Under the pieces are notes generated by a model. That model ran no database searches. It was given only the letters and a program-made list of their open reading frames with translations, and was not told the origin of the DNA. Of a stretch of 22,212 nucleotides of DNA, positions 11,123 through 22,098 are shown in pieces (position 1 is the first letter of the stretch; each line of letters opens with the position of its first letter). Source of the stretch: Desulfobacterales bacterium. GTDB taxonomy: Bacteria; Desulfobacterota; Desulfobacteria; Desulfobacterales; RPRI01. The stretch lies in the NCBI GenBank assembly GCA_020052975.1, contig JAGVOC010000440.1, positions 1 to 22,212 of the forward strand, given 5' to 3'. The position numbers and the translations under genes were made by a program.

Positions 11123-12982
11123 ATGATTTTTGTAAAACGAGTGATTACGAGAATAATCCCGATTTTCGTGCTTTTGATCCTGACCTGCCATGCTGCAGAT
11201 AGCCTTACCGATCCGCGTGGGATTTTATTGAAACATTACGAAGTGATCGGGGGACTGGAAAAGCTTAAAAAAATAAAATCCGGTTATATTGAAGGAAAAA
11301 TTACATTTGACGGGCTTAACGGCACATTCAGGCAGTGGGAAGAGATGCCGCTGAAATATCGTCTTGAAGAAGATTACGGGGTTATAAAACAGATTTTTGG
11401 CGATGACGGCCTGCAAAGCTGGACTGTTGATCCAAACGGGAAGGTCCAGATACAGAGAGATGATGATACTCTTAAACGAAGAAAGGTGAAAGCTCTGCTT
11501 GAAGTTTTTGATCATATGGAACCAGGTACAAAAAACTTCATTCTGACATATGAGGGAGGCGGACGGGCGGGAGAAATTGACTGCCACGTGATTAAAATGG
11601 CCAATATTATCAATGATGACTATACGCTGTTTTTCATAAGCAAGGAGAACTATTATGTTGTAAAGGCTATACTGAAGCAGCCGGATGTTGAAATTCATAC
11701 TCTTTTTTCAGATTTCCGCGAAATAGGCGGAATAATACATCCGTTTCATGAAGATACTGAAATTCTCCCGAGAGAAAAGAAAGAAACCATGCAGCTGGCA
11801 AAATATGACTTTAACGTGAAAGTTGACCAGGCTCTCTTTGCCCTCCCCCAGAAAGATGTTGAAGATTTTGCATTTTTAAACGGCGAGAATTCAGAGAATG
11901 TCCCTTTTACGTTTATCGAAAACAGTATTTATATTCCTGTGACTATAAACTCCGAAACAAGGTTATGGTTATTTGATAATGGCGCAAGCATGTCAATTAT
12001 TGATGCCGATTATGGTTCCAGCCTCGGACTTAAGCCGGAAGGAGAAATTAAAGGGTTTGGCATTGCAAGCCTTTTTGATTTCTCGTTTGTTACCTTGCCC
12101 TCATACCAGGTCAGCGGCATACAATTTAATCCCCAGAAAGTCTTTTCCTATAAAGGTCTTTCAAGCAGATTTTACGATTCTGATATAGTCGGCATCCTTG
12201 GACATGATTTTGTGTCAAGATTTGTCACAAAAATAGATTATGCAGCAAGGACTTTATCTTTTTACCATCCCGGGAAATTCAAATATTCGGGGGAGGGCAG
12301 GATCATCGATGCGCCCTTAAGGAATAAAATATTCAGTGTTCCCGCTTCCGTGGATGGAAAATATACAGGAAAATGGACCTTTGACCTTGGTGCCTTTGAT
12401 GTATCATTTCATTACCCTTTCGCCGATGAAAATAATCTTTTGAATTTAAGGGGTGTTGACAGATTAAGCGCCGATCTGGGAGGACAGCACAGGGAAAGAA
12501 CGGTGCAGTTTAAATCGATTGAACTGGGTGGCTTTGAAGTTTTATTTCCGCTGATAAACATACCGATGGACAAGGGTAAGGGCTCGAATGTAAGCAAAGA
12601 GATTATCGGGAATATCGGAAATTCTCTGCTTCGTCATTTTGTGGTGTATCTTGATTACAAAAGGCAGCAGGTGATACTCGAAAAAGGAAAAGATTTTGAT
12701 AGGAAGTTTCCCGCAGACAAAAGCGGTTTATTAATCGGGATGACTGATGAGGGTTTTCCTGAAATTGTTTTTGTTGCTCCCGGGACTCCTGCAGATAAAG
12801 CGGGTTTTGTTTATGGTGATATAATACTGAGAATTGACGGTACGGATGCCGGTTCTTTCGGCGGAATAACCGGAGTGCGGAATCTCTTCCTTCAAGAAGC
12901 CGGCAGAGAGTACAATATCGAAGTGATAAGGGCCGGGACAAAACATGAACTGAAACTGATACTTGAAGATTTGTTTAAGTGA
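11123..12982 (+). CDS. Secreted tandem retropepsin-like aspartyl protease with C-terminal PDZ domain
   Basis: The 619-residue reading starts at ATG 11123, with GGAGG seven bases upstream; a TTG two codons earlier is less likely. A signal peptide covers about residues 1-24 (cleavage near CHA-AD), so the protein is periplasmic or exported. Residues 30-250 are beta-rich and resemble lipoprotein-carrier-like domains. Two retropepsin-like lobes follow. The first has FDNGAS (Asp285) and GILGHDFVSRF (357-367); the second has FDLGAF (Asp421) and GNIGNSLLRHF (496-506). Each lobe thus has the Asp plus the hydrophobic-Gly element of the fold. Both sites depart from the DTG consensus: DNG is tolerated, while DLG is unusual, so activity is uncertain. 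Residues 535-615 form a PDZ domain (APGTPADKAGFVYGDIILRI). No partner gene is obvious nearby. Confidence 0.85.
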   Translation: MIFVKRVITRIIPIFVLLILTCHAADSLTDPRGILLKHYEVIGGLEKLKKIKSGYIEGKITFDGLNGTFRQWEEMPLKYRLEEDYGVIKQIFGDDGLQSWTVDPNGKVQIQRDDDTLKRRKVKALLEVFDHMEPGTKNFILTYEGGGRAGEIDCHVIKMANIINDDYTLFFISKENYYVVKAILKQPDVEIHTLFSDFREIGGIIHPFHEDTEILPREKKETMQLAKYDFNVKVDQALFALPQKDVEDFAFLNGENSENVPFTFIENSIYIPVTINSETRLWLFDNGASMSIIDADYGSSLGLKPEGEIKGFGIASLFDFSFVTLPSYQVSGIQFNPQKVFSYKGLSSRFYDSDIVGILGHDFVSRFVTKIDYAARTLSFYHPGKFKYSGEGRIIDAPLRNKIFSVPASVDGKYTGKWTFDLGAFDVSFHYPFADENNLLNLRGVDRLSADLGGQHRERTVQFKSIELGGFEVLFPLINIPMDKGKGSNVSKEIIGNIGNSLLRHFVVYLDYKRQQVILEKGKDFDRKFPADKSGLLIGMTDEGFPEIVFVAPGTPADKAGFVYGDIILRIDGTDAGSFGGITGVRNLFLQEAGREYNIEVIRAGTKHELKLILEDLFK

Positions 12983-13000
12983 AACAAATAAGCTCCAATC

Positions 13001-13029
13001 TTGACATGGGATGCAATGTTGGTTATCAT
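13001..13029 (+). promoter_or_regulatory. Sigma-70 type promoter of the toxin-antitoxin operon
   Basis: TTGACA (13001-13006), a 17-bp spacer and TATCAT (13024-13029) make a near-consensus promoter. It lies 34 bp before the antitoxin ATG at 13063, so the leader is short. The -10 box sits between the arms of the operator dyad. Confidence 0.75.
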
Positions 13030-13051
13030 AGCTATAAATGTCAACATTGCA
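13012..13051. promoter_or_regulatory. Operator dyad TGCAATGTTG-N20-CAACATTGCA of the TA operon
   Basis: Perfect 10-bp arms (13012-13021 and 13042-13051) are 30 bp apart centre to centre. An 8-bp palindrome ATAGCTAT (13028-13035) lies exactly at the dyad centre. The left arm overlaps the promoter spacer, and the right arm touches the ribosome binding site AGGAGG. RHH antitoxins commonly bind such sites and repress their own operon, so autoregulation by the gene product just downstream is expected. Confidence 0.7.
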
Positions 13052-13062
13052 GGAGGGGTATC

Positions 13063-13296
13063 ATGAAGACAATACAGATGACCTTAGATGATGAACTAGT
13101 CGCAACCGTTGACCAGGTCGTCAGAAAATTAAAAACAACCCGGTCTGCTTTTACGCGCAAGGCATTAAGGAATGCCGTCAAACAGGTCAATGTCGACCAA
13201 CTCGAAAAAAAGCACAAAAAAGGATACGGGCAGCACCCGGCTGACAAAACGGAATTTCACGTCTGGGAGTCAGAGCAAGAATGGGGTGATTTATGA
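13063..13296 (+). CDS. Ribbon-helix-helix antitoxin (MazE-like)
   Basis: A 77-residue antitoxin. The N-terminus MKTIQMTLDDELVATVDQVV is the beta strand and first helix of a ribbon-helix-helix fold, and RSAFTRKALRNAV is the second helix. Together they bind operator DNA as a dimer. The C-terminal tail, ending EFHVWESEQEWGDL, is of the type that wraps the MazF partner. The start at 13063 follows AGGAGG (13051-13056) at the normal distance; an open frame reaching back to 12979 would include the promoter and is rejected. The stop overlaps the toxin start (ATGA), so the two are translationally coupled. Confidence 0.9.
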   Translation: MKTIQMTLDDELVATVDQVVRKLKTTRSAFTRKALRNAVKQVNVDQLEKKHKKGYGQHPADKTEFHVWESEQEWGDL

Positions 13297-13604
13297 AGCG
13301 GGGTGATGTGAGATGGTACAAGTTCAAGCATCCCGATAAAAAACGTCCCGTAGTTATTTTAACGAGGAATTCCATCCTGGAATATCTGGATGAAGTTACT
13401 ATTGCGCCGGTAACTTCAACGATAAGAGATATTCCAAGCGAAGTCATCTTATCCAACCGGGATGGCATGAATAATGATTGTGCCATTAATTGTGACCACA
13501 TACAAACGGTGTCAAAATCAAACGTAGGATCAATGATCACCTCCTTATCAAAAGAAAAGCTAAGTGAAATTCGTAACGCCATTAATTTTGCACTGAATCT
13601 TTGA
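13293..13604 (+). CDS. MazF/PemK-family endoribonuclease toxin
   Basis: A 103-residue protein with the MazF fold signature. RGDVRWYKF opens the first strand. KRPVVIL contains Arg18 at the position of the E. coli MazF catalytic Arg, and PVTST (39-43) supplies the Thr. NCDHIQTVSKS corresponds to the CDQ.RT..K element. The glutamine-rich loop before RPVV is shortened to KHPDKK. The family cleaves single-stranded RNA at short specific sequences, and the antitoxin encoded just upstream should neutralise it. The gene overlaps that antitoxin by four bases. It ends 20 bp before the convergent cyclase gene. Confidence 0.9.
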   Translation: MKRGDVRWYKFKHPDKKRPVVILTRNSILEYLDEVTIAPVTSTIRDIPSEVILSNRDGMNNDCAINCDHIQTVSKSNVGSMITSLSKEKLSEIRNAINFALNL

Positions 13605-16867: not shown

Positions 16868-17005
16868 GACGGCTTCGTAATAAATCTCAAAGTCGTCACT
16901 TCCGTGAAAATCTGCCGCGGCGGAAACACTTTGAAATGATCCGCCGCGGCGGACTTCCGCGGGAATGACATAAAAGAGCAAATTCTTACTTTTTACGAAG
17001 CCGTC
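16868..17005. repeat. MITE-like element with 13-bp terminal inverted repeats
   Basis: GACGGCTTCGTAA (16868-16880) and TTACGAAGCCGTC (16993-17005) are perfect 13-bp terminal inverted repeats that bound a 138-bp element without coding capacity. Inside is a perfect 14-bp palindrome TCCGCCGCGGCGGA (16940-16953) and a second GC-rich half-site nearby. The right end (ACTTTTTACGA) recurs at 11039-11053 and, in part, at 22106-22132. No target-site duplication is obvious. It is best seen as a non-autonomous mobile repeat. Confidence 0.7.
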
Positions 17006-17170: not shown

Positions 17171-17399
17171 TTTGAGATTTTTGCACTTGATAATAATTAG
17201 ATGCGAGTGTAAAAATACATAATATCAATATCGGAAAAAAGATAAGCAATACGCAAATGTACCTAAAAAAACTATTAACATAATTTTGCCGGTAACCATT
17301 TCATTATTTTGATCGGCCGGAATATCAGGCCGGCAGACGGTAATCTTTCATAGCCAAATAAAATTTGTATCTCAGACTTAAACAAAGGAGGGTGGCTCT

Positions 17400-19046
17400 A
17401 TGATAAATAAAATGATAACTAATAAGAAACTTATACTGGGATTTTTAATAACAGGCCTTATATTTTTCATCGGTTGCGGAGGTATGGCCGAGTTCACAAA
17501 AGCAGAATATAAGCTCGGGACAAAAAAATATGACGAAGCGATACCTCTTTATAAAGAGTACCTTGCAAAGCAGCCCAATTCTGCTATCGGGCACAGCAAG
17601 CTCGGGTTTGCATATTTAAAGACAGGACGGCTGGACGAAGCTGTTTCCGAGTTTCAGACAGCGTTAAAAACAGAACCCGGTGAGCCGTTTTCGACATACT
17701 ATCTGGGCCTTGCATATCTGAACAAAGAGAATTATGAAAAAGCAATAGAGGTATGGCAAGGTTACAGAAACAGGTCCCAGCCACTTATAGAAGAAGAGAT
17801 CAGGCGGCAGCTTACTTTACTACAGATTTCCCAGAGCCACAAAGCCGCATCAAAAGCTTTGGCTGAAGAAAAAAAACTTGGTGCGGTTAAACCGGATTCC
17901 AATACGGTTGCCGTTTGTTACTACCAGGATCTTTCTCCCGACAAGAGCCTTGGCGCTTTCCAGAAAGGGCTTGCTGCGATGGTTATATCCGATCTTGCAA
18001 AAATCAAATCTATCAAAGTGGTTGAGAGGGTCAGATTGCAGGCTCTCCTGGAGGAGATGAAGCTGGGACAGACGGGCATTGTTGATCCGAAAACCGCACC
18101 GAGGGTAGGGAAGCTGCTTGGGGCCGAAAATATAATAGTCGGGAACTTATCCCTTGGGAGTATAAAAGCCGCGACTACTTTAGCATCATCAGGGAAGGGA
18201 AATGTTAAGGGATCAGCTTCCGTTTCTGTTGATAAGGACAGGTTTTTTGAGCTTCCGATGATTATAGTAAGAGATACCGCCAAAATCCTTGGGATTACTT
18301 TATCTGATGGTGAGAGCAAAGCAATAGGGGTTCCGCACACGAAAGTATATAATGCCGTGGTTTATTTCGGGAAGGCCCTGGATGCGCTCGATGCCGGAAA
18401 GTGGAAAGATGCGAAGGATTTTTTCAGCATGGCACTTAAGGAGGACCCTGCGTTTGGTCTCGCAAGACAGGGCGCCGATTCCTGCCCCGGTGGAGGCGCT
18501 CCGGGCACAGGCGCTGTTTCAGGCATGTCTGCCGCTAATTTTTCTGCAATGTCTGAAGCATCGGTTGGAGCTGCTTCAGCTTCTCAGAGCGAAGCAGATG
18601 CTGCGGCTGCCAGTGCCGCGCAAGGCGGAGGCGGAGGCTGTTTTTCTTATGACACTAATATTCTTATGGCCGACAATTCATTCAAGCGGATAATTGATCT
18701 TCGTGAAGGAGAATATGTAAAGGCCTGCGATGTTGATACCGGTGCAGTTGTGAACAGAAAGGTAATAAACAAATACCGTGCTGACCAGAATCACTATTAT
18801 CTGATCAACAGTGATATCAAGATAACCGAAAATCATCCTGTTTTTACGGCTGATGCAAAGTGGGTAAAAGTTGCAGACCTTAAAATCGGCGACAGTATAG
18901 CCACAATCGATGGATCAGTAAAAATATCTTCCATAGACAGGATAGAATATGATCACAGAGTGTATAATTTCAGGGTTGATGACAGCCATAACTATTATGT
19001 TTCGGCGTATGGAAAAGAAGTATATCTGGTCCATAACTCAAAATAA
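17400..19046 (+). CDS. TPR-CsgG/FlgO-like lipoprotein with C-terminal Hint (intein-like) domain
   Basis: A 548-residue lipoprotein. The signal peptide ends in FFIGC with lipid Cys26. TPR repeats cover about 30-130. A CsgG/FlgO-like domain (168-310) contains VAVCYYQDLSP and VVERVRLQALLEEMKLGQTG. One more TPR helix pair covers 316-352. Then comes a low-complexity Ala/Ser/Gly linker (359-413) ending GGGGG. The last 135 residues are a Hint domain. Block A starts at Cys414 (CFSYDTNILMADNS). Block B is ITENHP, with His479. Blocks F and G are VYNFRVDDSHNYYV and VHN, with His545 and Asn546; only Ser-Lys follows before the stop. All autoprocessing residues are present and no homing endonuclease is inserted. 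Self-cleavage at Cys414 is the inference. The gene is first in a three-gene operon, with a strong AAGGAGG site upstream. Confidence 0.88.
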   Translation: MINKMITNKKLILGFLITGLIFFIGCGGMAEFTKAEYKLGTKKYDEAIPLYKEYLAKQPNSAIGHSKLGFAYLKTGRLDEAVSEFQTALKTEPGEPFSTYYLGLAYLNKENYEKAIEVWQGYRNRSQPLIEEEIRRQLTLLQISQSHKAASKALAEEKKLGAVKPDSNTVAVCYYQDLSPDKSLGAFQKGLAAMVISDLAKIKSIKVVERVRLQALLEEMKLGQTGIVDPKTAPRVGKLLGAENIIVGNLSLGSIKAATTLASSGKGNVKGSASVSVDKDRFFELPMIIVRDTAKILGITLSDGESKAIGVPHTKVYNAVVYFGKALDALDAGKWKDAKDFFSMALKEDPAFGLARQGADSCPGGGAPGTGAVSGMSAANFSAMSEASVGAASASQSEADAAAASAAQGGGGGCFSYDTNILMADNSFKRIIDLREGEYVKACDVDTGAVVNRKVINKYRADQNHYYLINSDIKITENHPVFTADAKWVKVADLKIGDSIATIDGSVKISSIDRIEYDHRVYNFRVDDSHNYYVSAYGKEVYLVHNSK

Positions 19047-19067: not shown

Positions 19068-19799
19068 ATGAATAGATTGAGCATGTTTGCCCTTATAATC
19101 ATTCTTGCAGTTATTATGTTTTTCGCCGGATGTGCCGGAGAAAAGGGAGTAAAGAAGGAGGATATTAAGGTAAAAGAGGAGCCTGCAGCCGTTTTAGATC
19201 AGGTTCCTAAAACTATGGCTGTTTTGCCTTTTGAAAACAACTCAGTGACTGATCCGGACCGGTATGCTCCTTTGAGCAAGGGTCTTTCGGCCATGCTTAT
19301 TACCGATCTGAAAAACAGCAGCACATCGCTTCAGCTTATTGAAAGGGACAAGATTCAGGCCCTGTTAAAAGAGATTGCACTGGGCCAGAGCGGAAGCGTG
19401 GACCAGTCAACCGCTGTAAAAGCCGGCAAAATACTCGGAGCGCAATCAATTGTTTTCGGTTCTTTCATGGTGCTTGGAAATCAGGTTCGTATGGATGCAA
19501 GAATCATAAAAGTTGAAACGAGCGAGGTGGTGATGGCGGAATCTGTTGCGGGAGACAGCGGCGGTTTAATGAATTTAGCCATGGAGCTTGCCGGAAAGAT
19601 AGCAAGATCAATGAAAGTGGCTTTTAAGCCTCCCCAGGTAAAGGGTGAAGGGGATATAAATGCCGCTCTTTATTTTTCGAAAGGACTTGATGCATTGGAC
19701 CGGGGTGATAAGAAAGAGGCAAGAAGGTTGTTTTCAAAATGTGTTGAACTTGACCCTGCATATAAAACGCAGGTCGATAACGTGAAAGGTTTAAACTGA
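19068..19799 (+). CDS. FlgO/CsgG-like outer-membrane lipoprotein
   Basis: A 243-residue lipoprotein with lipobox FFAGC (Cys22). The FlgO/CsgG-like domain runs from about 48 (KTMAVLPFENNS) through LIERDKIQALLKEIALGQSG and GAQSIVFGSF to RMDARIIKVETSEVVMAES. A short TPR-like helix pair ends the protein (INAALYFSKGLDALDRGDKKEARRLF). It is clearly a paralogue of the preceding lipoprotein, with the same order, but lacks the N-terminal TPR block, the linker and the Hint domain. CsgG/FlgO-type proteins assemble in or at the outer membrane around curli or flagellar machinery, although no curli or flagellar genes are present here. AAGGAAG precedes the ATG, 21 bp after the previous stop. Its stop overlaps the next start (TGATG). 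Confidence 0.87.
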   Translation: MNRLSMFALIIILAVIMFFAGCAGEKGVKKEDIKVKEEPAAVLDQVPKTMAVLPFENNSVTDPDRYAPLSKGLSAMLITDLKNSSTSLQLIERDKIQALLKEIALGQSGSVDQSTAVKAGKILGAQSIVFGSFMVLGNQVRMDARIIKVETSEVVMAESVAGDSGGLMNLAMELAGKIARSMKVAFKPPQVKGEGDINAALYFSKGLDALDRGDKKEARRLFSKCVELDPAYKTQVDNVKGLN

Positions 19800-20926
19800 T
19801 GAAAAAACTAACTTTACTTATATCCGTATTTGCCGGATTGCTGATCTTTTGCGGCGGAGCTTTTGCTGAAGATAAGGTAATCGAGGCAGAAGGCACAAGT
19901 TCCATATCGAAGGAAGATGCCATACGCCAGGCCCAGCGTTCGGCTGTCGAACAGGCAGTGGGTGTCTTTATTAACTCACAGACAGAGGTTGAGAATTTTG
20001 AACTGAAAAAAGACAAGATATTTTCCAAAACCCAGGGCTATATAAAAAGATTTTCAGTTTTAAAGGAAAAAAAAGAGGGCGATCTTTTCAGGGTCAGTGT
20101 GAGCGCAACCGTTTCACTTGATAAAATCAAAGATGACCTTATTGCGATGAAGATTCTCCTTGAGAGTATGGAACGTCCGAAACTCATGGTTCTTGTCGAA
20201 GAAGATTATAAGAGCATGGACAATCTCGGAATGGGCATTGCTTCAACCGAAATGTCCTCAATGCTTGGCGCCAAAGGTTTTGAGCTTGTGGACAAGTCCC
20301 AGGTCGATGCTGTCATGCATAATAATCAGGGAAGGCAGGCGCTGGCAGGGAATGCAAACGCAGCCAAAGCTCTCGGTCTGAAGTTCGGGGCTCAGTATGT
20401 TATTGTCGGAAAGGCGGTTGCCCAGGATGCAGGAGAAGCCTATCCCGGTTCAGGTTTAAAATCAATACAGGCAAGCCTCCAATTAAAGGTTATCCAGACA
20501 CAGACGGGACTTGTTCTGGGTTCTGTTGTGAAGAACGGTGTTTCAGCCCATATGAGCCCTCTTACCGGGGCTACAAATGCCATACAGATGTCTGTCCAGA
20601 AGGCTGTGGATGAATACCTGGTAGATGCCATAACAAATTCTTTCCAGGGTTTCCTCAATAACGGCTCTCCTCTTAAGCTGCATATAACAGGCGTAAACTC
20701 TTTCCAGGAATCCAAAATGGTCATTTCAACCATTGAAAAGACGGAGAAAGTTGCGAGCAGTAAAAAAGAAGGGTGGAATAAAACCGGCGGCGTTCTTGTG
20801 CTTGACCTCCTTTACAAAGGGACAAGCGAGGAGCTTGCGGAAGTGCTCGACGGGAAAAAAATCGGCAACGGCAAGCTTGAGGTTGTTGATGTGGCTCCTG
20901 AAAGACTTGACTGTAAATTAAAGTAA
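19799..20926 (+). CDS. FlgT-like periplasmic protein
   Basis: A 375-residue exported protein. Its signal peptide cleaves after AFA (residue 23). The N-terminal domain (26-115) has IEAEGTSSISKEDAIRQAQR and VFINSQTEVENFELKKDKIF, the pattern of FlgT N-terminal/LPP20 domains. The middle (about 125-285) is CsgG-like: GFELVDKSQVDAVM and LGLKFGAQYVIVGKAV parallel the lipoproteins upstream. A C-terminal segment (290-375) is beta-rich. In Vibrio, FlgT, FlgO and FlgP make the flagellar H ring and outer-membrane parts; here the set is related but stands next to no flagellar gene. It is co-translated with the lipoprotein before it (one-base overlap) and closes the operon. No terminator hairpin with a T-run was found after it. 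Confidence 0.83.
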   Translation: MKKLTLLISVFAGLLIFCGGAFAEDKVIEAEGTSSISKEDAIRQAQRSAVEQAVGVFINSQTEVENFELKKDKIFSKTQGYIKRFSVLKEKKEGDLFRVSVSATVSLDKIKDDLIAMKILLESMERPKLMVLVEEDYKSMDNLGMGIASTEMSSMLGAKGFELVDKSQVDAVMHNNQGRQALAGNANAAKALGLKFGAQYVIVGKAVAQDAGEAYPGSGLKSIQASLQLKVIQTQTGLVLGSVVKNGVSAHMSPLTGATNAIQMSVQKAVDEYLVDAITNSFQGFLNNGSPLKLHITGVNSFQESKMVISTIEKTEKVASSKKEGWNKTGGVLVLDLLYKGTSEELAEVLDGKKIGNGKLEVVDVAPERLDCKLK

Positions 20927-21121: not shown

Positions 21122-21631
21122 ATGTATAAACTCCTGAAAGCGAGGGACTCAAGGGGATTTACACTGATCGAGATCATCGGCGTCCTGATGCTGGTGGGTA
21201 TCCTCACGGTGGTCGTCATCAGCAGAGTGATGAGCACCGCGAGCACGGACAGGATTGTCCAGGAGAGTGTCATCAAGAACCATATCCGTTACGCTCAGGC
21301 GAAGGCTATGAAACAAGGAACGATATGGGGGATCAAATGCGATGGCACGGATTACTGGCTGTTCATAACCAACGCCCCGGATACGGTGACCAACCAGATA
21401 ACCCTCCCCGGGGAGGAGAATGCGAAAGTCATATTGGCCGATAAAAAAATCACAATGAACGCTTTTACGGTCTTCTTCGATGTCAACGGTCGGCCCTATA
21501 CGGCCTATACGGACGCATCCACCAACACGCCGGTCAGCACCGCCAATCCGCTTTCCATTACCGTGGATTCAGTCCCGGCCGACGTTGCGGCGACTTTCGG
21601 GATAACGCCCGAAACAGGATTTATGCCATGA
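21122..21631 (+). CDS. Type IV prepilin / GspH-type pseudopilin
   Basis: A 169-residue prepilin. The leader MYKLLKARDSRG ends in Gly12, followed by FTLIEIIGVLMLVGIL, the class III signal cut by the prepilin peptidase (PilD). Phe13 becomes the methylated N-terminus and Glu17 is the conserved Glu5. The following helix and a beta-rich C-terminal half (SVIKNHIRYAQAKAMKQGTIWGIKCD) resemble GspH/FimT-type minor subunits, including the AQAxAM helix. It would sit in the inner membrane until built into a pilus or pseudopilus. No strong ribosome binding site is visible before the ATG. The gene overlaps the next prepilin by four bases. Both prepilin genes look more GC-rich than the block to their left. 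Confidence 0.88.
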   Translation: MYKLLKARDSRGFTLIEIIGVLMLVGILTVVVISRVMSTASTDRIVQESVIKNHIRYAQAKAMKQGTIWGIKCDGTDYWLFITNAPDTVTNQITLPGEENAKVILADKKITMNAFTVFFDVNGRPYTAYTDASTNTPVSTANPLSITVDSVPADVAATFGITPETGFMP

Positions 21632-22098
21632 GGGTTTTACAAGGATCACGAGCGTCTCAGGCAGGGTTCACGCTGATCGAAGTGATCGTAGCAATCGTTC
21701 TGGGCTCGATCGTTGGGGTGATCTTTCTCACCTATATGGGGACACAGCTGACTCAAAGCGGCGATCCGATCAATATCACCCGCCATGAGGGGGTCGCCGA
21801 GATGTGGATGGAGCGTATCCTGTCCGATTACGTCGAGGAGATGAACGCCGCGACTTATACAACGGCGCTGGCAACCATCCTTGCCCGGGATTATACTGCC
21901 GGAATATACAACATGCCGGCAAGTGTGGCGCTGACCCGGGCCTATGTCACCTACGACGCGGGGGGGAATGAAGTCGCAGTCACGGGCGGCGGAACAAGCA
22001 GCAATCTCAAGGTGACCGTCCAGGCCGGAGGGTACGGTCTGACCTGCATTCTTACCGCCGAACGTGTCACGAGCGGCGATCCGGCAACGTATTACTGA
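21628..22098 (+). CDS. Type IV prepilin / minor pseudopilin (GspI/MshD-like)
   Basis: A 156-residue prepilin with the leader MRVLQGSRASQAG and the cleavage site Gly13-Phe14, followed by FTLIEVIVAIVLGSIVGVIF with the conserved Glu at mature position 5. The soluble part (RHEGVAEMWMERILSDYVEEMN) suggests a minor subunit such as GspI, PilV or MshD; which of these is not decided. AGGA nine bases before the ATG and the four-base overlap with the preceding prepilin (ATGA) show coupled translation. No assembly ATPase, PilC or PilQ gene is in the window, so the pair may continue a larger cluster beyond it or be an orphan minor-pilin pair. A hairpin-rich region follows the stop. Confidence 0.87.
   Translation: MRVLQGSRASQAGFTLIEVIVAIVLGSIVGVIFLTYMGTQLTQSGDPINITRHEGVAEMWMERILSDYVEEMNAATYTTALATILARDYTAGIYNMPASVALTRAYVTYDAGGNEVAVTGGGTSSNLKVTVQAGGYGLTCILTAERVTSGDPATYY

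Follow-up and report, generated by a model that had tools for sequence, protein, structure and literature searches.

A mini-intein-like Hint domain predicted in the poly-glycine tail of a TPR-CsgG lipoprotein from a Desulfobacterales bacterium

Overview

We have analyzed a stretch of 22,212 nt from a Desulfobacterales bacterium (contig JAGVOC010000440.1 of assembly GCA_020052975.1), hereafter called the window, and the C-terminus of its TPR-CsgG lipoprotein is best read as a mini-intein-like Hint domain that has no endonuclease and sits within the poly-Gly tail of the lipoprotein. On the basis of the predicted fold, the catalytic residues, their conservation, orthologues with an empty site, the nucleophile at position +1 and the terminal Lys, the domain may excise itself by splicing and leave a lipoprotein ending in GGGGG-Ser-Lys, a reading to which we assign a probability of roughly 0.5. 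Processing at Cys414 in some way is considerably more probable. We infer that such a reaction runs, as well as its order, its compartment and the role of the tail.

To our knowledge, what bacterial intein-like domains do in nature is an open question. A single family that occurs with and without a Hint domain at the same poly-Gly tail, beside the same gene, and in which the +1 nucleophile is conserved and a terminal Lys goes with the Hint, makes the role of processing for the host directly addressable, and self-excision, if true, would be a natural and testable job for this poorly understood class of domains. The family may also yield small natural inteins that tolerate poly-Gly junctions and very short C-exteins. 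No description of a poly-Gly lipoprotein-Hint architecture was found in the literature searched, a scope outside which most subscription papers lie.

Hint domain and host gene

The initial annotation had proposed a complete Hint domain without endonuclease, carrying the autoprocessing motifs and a terminal His-Asn, and this proposal is confirmed for residues 414-546 by profile match and predicted fold (Table 1). The profile search and structure prediction that it had suggested as checks gave a match to PT-HINT (PF07591) of 53.3 bits, above the cut-off of 27.7 bits, and an AF2 model with a pLDDT of 94 and the horseshoe Hint fold. Folds nearest to this model are BIL2, BIL4 and mini-inteins; the best Foldseek match is BIL2 from the BUBL1 locus of Tetrahymena (6y75, 6tmm), and by VIA-align the matches to BIL2 and BIL4 are tied with mini-inteins close to them, so that fold similarity does not favor BUBL in particular. 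Tako8 (6y7o/6g6m) was rejected as a relative in PDB because its scores add up seven weak repeats, and no single one of them passes.

At least 31 complete proteins, including that of the window, have the same Hint (28 TPR-CsgG and 3 TPR only), and the per-residue counts are taken over these rows, which are related by descent and are not phylogenetically independent; a protein with a truncated Hint (P0023) is excluded from all counts. The fusion that the initial annotation found unusual is real and is not a lone case, a similar cassette being present also on other hosts. As the comparison set without Hint, we used 100 family members among 120 of 271 matches listed.

Table 1. Positions of the lipoprotein gene, its parts and its neighbors in the window; fractions are counts over the 31 Hint-bearing proteins
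Feature	Positions	Strand	Evidence
Shine-Dalgarno-like AGGAGG upstream of the TPR-CsgG-Hint gene	17386..17391	+	sequence
TPR-CsgG lipoprotein gene with C-terminal Hint domain, 548 aa	17400..19046	+	
Signal peptide with lipobox-like FIGC; Cys26, likely lipidated residue	17400..17477	+	sequence
TPR repeats, about residues 30-125	17487..17774	+	Pfam TPR_2 2e-19; AF2 helices
CsgG-like domain, residues 170-250, about the first half of PF03783	17907..18149	+	profile match
Helical linker, residues 378-404	18531..18611	+	AF2 model, conservation
Poly-Gly, G409-G413	18624..18638	+	disordered in AF2 model, pLDDT <50 at 408-411
Hint domain, Cys414-Asn546, 133 aa, without endonuclease	18639..19037	+	profiles, AF2 fold, conservation
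Cys414, Hint Cys1 (31/31)	18639..18641	+	conservation
Block B TxxH: Thr476 (30/31, one Ser), His479 (31/31)	18825..18836	+	conservation
Block F His530 (30/31)	18987..18989	+	conservation
His545-Asn546 (30/31)	19032..19037	+	conservation
C-terminal flank: Ser547 (+1 nucleophile), Lys548, stop	19038..19046	+	sequence
Small CsgG-type lipoprotein, next gene downstream	19068..19799	+	profile match
FlgT_N/LpoB-like protein	19799..20926	+	both Pfam matches below cut-off

The assignment of the host as a lipoprotein is borne out by its signal peptide, and a loose lipobox pattern is matched in 26 of the 31 Hint-bearing members and 95 of the 100 Hint-less members among the matches listed. Its assignment to the FlgO type has been dropped, since no FlgO match was obtained for the window protein. 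The match to PF03783 is above the cut-off (40 bits) and spans only positions 22-98 of the 210 in the profile. The linker before the poly-Gly is kept in proteins with and without Hint, Q396 being invariant and A399 and D400 present in at least 90%.

The FlgT_N/LpoB-like gene directly follows the small lipoprotein gene also in L001, L002, L004 and L007, and it lies about 3 kb further away in L012. Directly upstream of the TPR-CsgG gene, L001, L002 and L004 have a tandem paralogue that carries no Hint and is rich in Pro and Tyr at its end; this paralogue is absent from the window, and in L001 it is interrupted by the contig start. Elsewhere in the window, an intergenic stretch at 16868-17005 lies between GACGGCTTCGTAA / TTACGAAGCCGTC arms recognized by eye and is possibly a dispersed repeat; a small gene pair at 12979-13604 appears to encode an antitoxin of the ribbon-helix-helix type and a MazF-type toxin; and two prepilin-like genes, with the GFTLIE motif in their translations, are found at 21122-22098, downstream of the lipoprotein string.

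Empty site in Hint-less relatives

The initial annotation missed that the poly-Gly tail preceding the Hint is the natural C-terminus of close Hint-less orthologues. Among the 12 named loci, the Hint is present in one, L001. The Hint-less L002, L003, L004 and L007, with core identities of 81-84%, have the same small lipoprotein gene next and end in poly-Gly-His, as does the more distant L012 (59% core identity). At the junction, the DNA reads GGCGGAGGC/CATTAA in these four close alleles versus GGCGGAGGC/TGTTTT in the window, and the sequences become alike again just ahead of the next lipoprotein gene. Thus an in-frame insertion with Hint-free orthologues is found in comparison with all five alleles, and wider synteny with the window is seen for L004. 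By the same measure, the gap between the stop codon and the small lipoprotein gene is 22 bp in the window versus 83-164 bp in the five Hint-less alleles. The tails of the Hint-less L008 and L009 end otherwise, not in poly-Gly, and in L005, L006, L010 and L011 the relevant copy is interrupted by contig ends.

A Gly-containing tail, according to a loose rule, is present in 83 of the 100 Hint-less members among the matches listed, with H (34), Y (14), G (13), P (11), C (7), D (2), E (1) or Q (1) as the last residue; among the remaining 17, the last residue is Y, P, N, Q, R or E. Inteins favor conserved host motifs as insertion sites; the window Hint is located instead in a length-variable poly-Gly tail. 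The tail of the host is variable, yet its core belongs to a conserved orthologous family.

Because close relatives have the Gly tail but no Hint in it, this placement suggests self-excision leaving an ordinary Gly tail. The empty-site comparison, together with the pattern of +1 residues and terminal Lys explained below, is the strongest part of the case.

Residues flanking the Hint domain

In the 31 proteins, the Hint is followed by 0-21 residues, most of which are Gly, with Lys or Ser/Cys-Lys at the end. Proteins of the window type (class A) have poly-Gly, the Hint and then S-K, C-K, S-K-G-H or nothing, and in the eight proteins of class B the Hint is followed by a flank that runs into poly-Gly with a Lys end, e.g. 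HN/TGGGGGGK, where the slash marks the Hint border. Four class B proteins (P0082, P0086, P0108 and P0117) have an AxA-type signal peptide end instead of the lipobox Cys, and they retain the Hint and poly-Gly-Lys despite this absence.

Residues after an intact His-Asn are present in 23 of the 31 proteins, and their +1 residue is Ser in 11, Cys in 7, Thr in 4 and Asp in 1, i.e., a nucleophile in 22/23 with P0084 as the exception. Of these 23 proteins, 22 end in Lys; the exception, P0017, ends in SKGH. Seven proteins end exactly at His-Asn, yet keep Cys1 and His-Asn, and P0085 is the sole case of 31 in which His-Asn has been lost. Residue -1 is Gly in 21/31 and Asp in 5/31. In class B, +1 is Ser, Thr or Cys in 7/8, and +2 is occupied by six different residues. 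On the Hint tree, in which P0133 and P0134 from another host are included for this count and apart from the 31, +1 changes at least nine times and Asp is the single outcome outside Ser, Cys and Thr. A terminal Lys is found in 22/31 Hint-bearing versus 0/100 Hint-less proteins among the matches listed; in independent pairs, it goes with the Hint by 6:0 or 5:0, with a median p of 0.03 and values up to 0.06.

Proposed reaction and alternatives

Beyond cleavage at Cys414 or a Hedgehog-like tether, as envisaged initially, splicing, which was overlooked at that time, has to be considered, because a +1 nucleophile, Ser547 in the window, is kept in 22/23 flanked proteins. The window protein has the full residue set of a class 1 mini-intein, namely Cys414 and His545-Asn546 followed by Ser547, which makes splicing the most economical reading. 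After translation, Cys414 would attack the Gly413-Cys414 bond to form a thioester, Ser547 would take over the acyl chain from it, and Asn546 would cyclize, whereupon the Hint would leave. The product would be the lipoprotein with its poly-Gly tail plus Ser-Lys, which is near the tail encoded directly by Hint-less orthologues; because these end in H, Y, C, G or another residue, not Ser-Lys, the spliced end would resemble theirs without being identical.

Several observations stand against splicing: seven of the 31 proteins have no C-flank and thus nothing to splice to, the window C-flank of two residues is minimal, P0085 is without His-Asn, P0084 has Asp at +1, Asp occupies -1 in 5/31, and some Hint-less genes are without a Gly tail. 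Splicing is impossible for these seven, which end at His-Asn and, if active, must hydrolyze or transfer the Gly thioester. The principal alternative, which we regard as plausible but less probable than splicing, is that water or an outside amine resolves the thioester at Gly413 in the manner of Hedgehog or BUBL, the residues after Asn not being joined. The amine may be that of peptidoglycan, phosphatidylethanolamine or a Lys side chain, so that the Hint would be lost and the lipoprotein perhaps tethered via its poly-Gly C-terminus. The retention of Cys1 and His-Asn in the seven flankless proteins and the Gly at -1 in 21/31 are in favor of this alternative, as are the Lys end tied to the presence of the Hint and the Foldseek match to BIL2, which is reported in PMC8616854 (section 2.4) to make isopeptide bonds between its substrate and the side chain of a Lys. 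On the other hand, the +1 nucleophile is conserved where a flank exists (22/23), the Hint is not followed by a sterol-recognition region or any other acceptor domain, and the tie of BIL2 with BIL4, with mini-inteins close to them, does not point to BUBL specifically.

Cleavage at one end, as in A-type bacterial intein-like domains (BILs), e.g. Asn cyclization trimming Ser-Lys while the Hint remains as the terminal domain, appears improbable. Type A BILs can splice with cleavage products dominating, as described in excerpts of PMC4031507, but two residues are an odd target for trimming, and Cys1 and the block B His, which are required for the N-terminal step, are invariant in 31/31. Least probable is that the Hint is an inert remnant of a polymorphic toxin (a pretoxin Hint) that has lost its toxin part: PT-HINT is the best Pfam family, and the best 15 of 111 plasmid matches (34-37% identical) are mostly annotated as polymorphic toxin-type HINT, but the Hint domains of the window and L001 differ with a dN of 0.04 and a dS of 0.17 (dN/dS 0.24), the catalytic residues are kept in 30-31 of 31 proteins, and what follows the Hint is limited to the short, mostly Gly flanks described above.

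Distribution and history of the Hint domain

Among genomes of the phylum, the TPR-CsgG-type Hint is rare. The window Hint was matched in 7/395 genomes of the phylum (E 1e-6) and a Hint profile search gave matches in 13/395 (1e-8); PF07591 is present in 20/389 genomes of the class, and most of these genome-level matches sit on hosts other than the TPR-CsgG lipoprotein. Relatives of the gene come from metagenome-assembled genomes labelled Proteobacteria, Deltaproteobacteria, Desulfobacteraceae, Desulfobacterales, Desulfobacula and Thermodesulfobacteriota. Two irregular cases have been found: a TPR-only lipoprotein in L099/L089 whose Hint has a broken frame (L099:8382-9340), and two tandem lipoprotein-Hint genes (L098:9704-11446), of which the first ends in FFLVK without His-Asn and the second is interrupted by the contig end.

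A core tree was built from 78 rows, i.e., 50 chosen of the 100 Hint-less and 28 of the 31 Hint-bearing proteins, excluding the TPR-only P0014-P0016, the tandem-paralogue type and many distant Hint-less members. On the best tree, the presence of the Hint changes at least 15 times (shuffled mean 23), and at least six changes are forced by well-supported branches. Because core and Hint distances are correlated (Mantel r 0.76, 0 of 2000, 28 rows), the history fits mostly vertical descent with repeated loss. Class B is a single clade of the Hint tree (99/98) but occupies two weakly supported places in the core tree, which speaks against strictly vertical descent. In the spacers of the five Hint-less alleles, no Hint remnants were found (best tblastn E 0.41), and loss is therefore not shown in that way. 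A phage or plasmid origin was considered and rejected: matches were obtained in 111 plasmid and 25 phage records, each with less than 60% identity, and those listed have 26-37% identity.

Similar cassettes on other hosts

Similar C-terminal cassettes occur on other hosts. P0133 and P0134, both with a signal-peptide-like start, end in HN/SGGGGGGGGK and /TGGGGGK, respectively, and no Pfam domain besides the Hint was found in P0133. The other ends are /CGGGGK in L015, /TG7K in L084, /TG6K in L085, /SGGGGAK in L087 and /SSGGGK in L088. Lipoboxes were recognized by eye in L015, L085, L087 and L088, and L084 is truncated at the N-terminus. The N-terminal parts of these hosts, L084 aside, had no similarity to the TPR family, and only P0133/P0134 (78%) and L085/L015 (E 0.007) are alike among themselves. 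These seven and L014, the exception with poly-Gly, the Hint and then KGGSS, are the eight other terminal-Hint hosts flanked after His-Asn, a set without L079 (His-Asn absent) and L089 (frame broken, ending at His-Asn).

Ser, Thr or Cys at +1 together with a terminal Lys is thus found in 7/8 of these hosts. In the 12 other non-tandem PT-HINT hosts (L058/L071 as one gene, L062, L065, L072-L078, L083 and L086), a set without tandem-Hint proteins (whose listed flanks read His-Asn-Lys), Hints without His-Asn and partial matches, +1 is Ser, Thr or Cys in 4/12. Fisher's test for 7/8 versus 4/12 gives p 0.03, which shifts to 0.01 or 0.07 when one or two borderline hosts are regrouped, i.e., L072 alone or with L076, which have 7 and 22 residues after the Hint, respectively, without poly-Gly-Lys. 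L083 and L086, included in the 12, are multihaem-cytochrome-like proteins with CxxCH motifs, in which the Hint is inserted directly after CxxCH and +1 is Gln or Pro.

Tandem Hints are present in L016, L017, L018, L020 and L022, with 3-5 profile matches per ORF, within a Gly-rich stretch downstream of a hydrophobic N-terminus, as in the pattern RGGGG/C..HN/KG/C..HN/KGGG/C..HN/KGGG; L016, the sole ORF of this type tested, has a Tim44-like domain at its end. A partner gene common to Hint-tailed proteins was not found, other than the Hint itself, when ORFs of ten loci were compared with the window and L004. L094 and L095 share neighbors as close relatives, and an adjacent lipoprotein-like gene beside a Hint-tailed lipoprotein is common to L096 (L096:8082-8891) and L097 (L097:8895-9899); the former has Sel1 and peptidoglycan-binding domains, and the latter is 40% identical to it.

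A broader and rather speculative idea is that Hint-(Ser/Thr/Cys)-Gly(n)-Lys-stop serves as a portable cassette at the C-termini of envelope proteins in bacteria of the Desulfobacterota type, which would process itself and so expose or append a poly-Gly-(Lys) handle for covalent anchoring or crosslinking. If this were true, the handle would act via a Gly thioester or a Lys amine, in a BUBL-like ligation free of ATP.

Comparison with known systems

The Hog domain of Hedgehog proteins differs from the window Hint, which has no sterol-recognition region, only Ser-Lys following it, and which has a C-terminal His-Asn. Family PF07591 is common to the window Hint and the PT-HINT of polymorphic toxins such as MafB, but no toxin follows the former. 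According to excerpts of PMC7738311, the Hint of Neisseria is on MafB, a protein separate from the lipoprotein MafA, which is likened to CsgG. BIL2 of Tetrahymena BUBL1 has eukaryotic ubiquitin-like hosts and 21-23% sequence identity to the window Hint; no ubiquitin-like domain was found in the window lipoprotein by Pfam profile search.

With regard to bacterial intein-like domains, the intein C-terminal motif is absent from the B type, whereas the window Hint has His-Asn, which it shares with A-type BILs such as C. thermocellum BIL4 (2lwy). Excerpts of PMC4031507 describe BILs as having no +1 nucleophile, and the A type as ending in His-Asn and mostly cleaving; because excerpts of PMC5874633 word this absence as frequent only, it is not an absolute criterion for the A type. 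The window protein has Ser547 at this position, and the family has Ser, Cys or Thr in 22/23. BILs are also described, in excerpts of PMC7765530 and PMC5874633, in variable regions of non-conserved proteins, whereas the site of the window Hint is the poly-Gly tail of a single orthologous lipoprotein, some alleles of which are empty.

Mini-inteins such as that of Ssp DnaB differ from the window Hint, for which splicing is putative, in that the latter lies in a disordered tail and has a C-extein of 0-21 residues in its family and a terminal Lys. Since BILs lack, or often lack, the +1 nucleophile in the portions of the reviews cited above, the window Hint appears more like a mini-intein placed at a tail.
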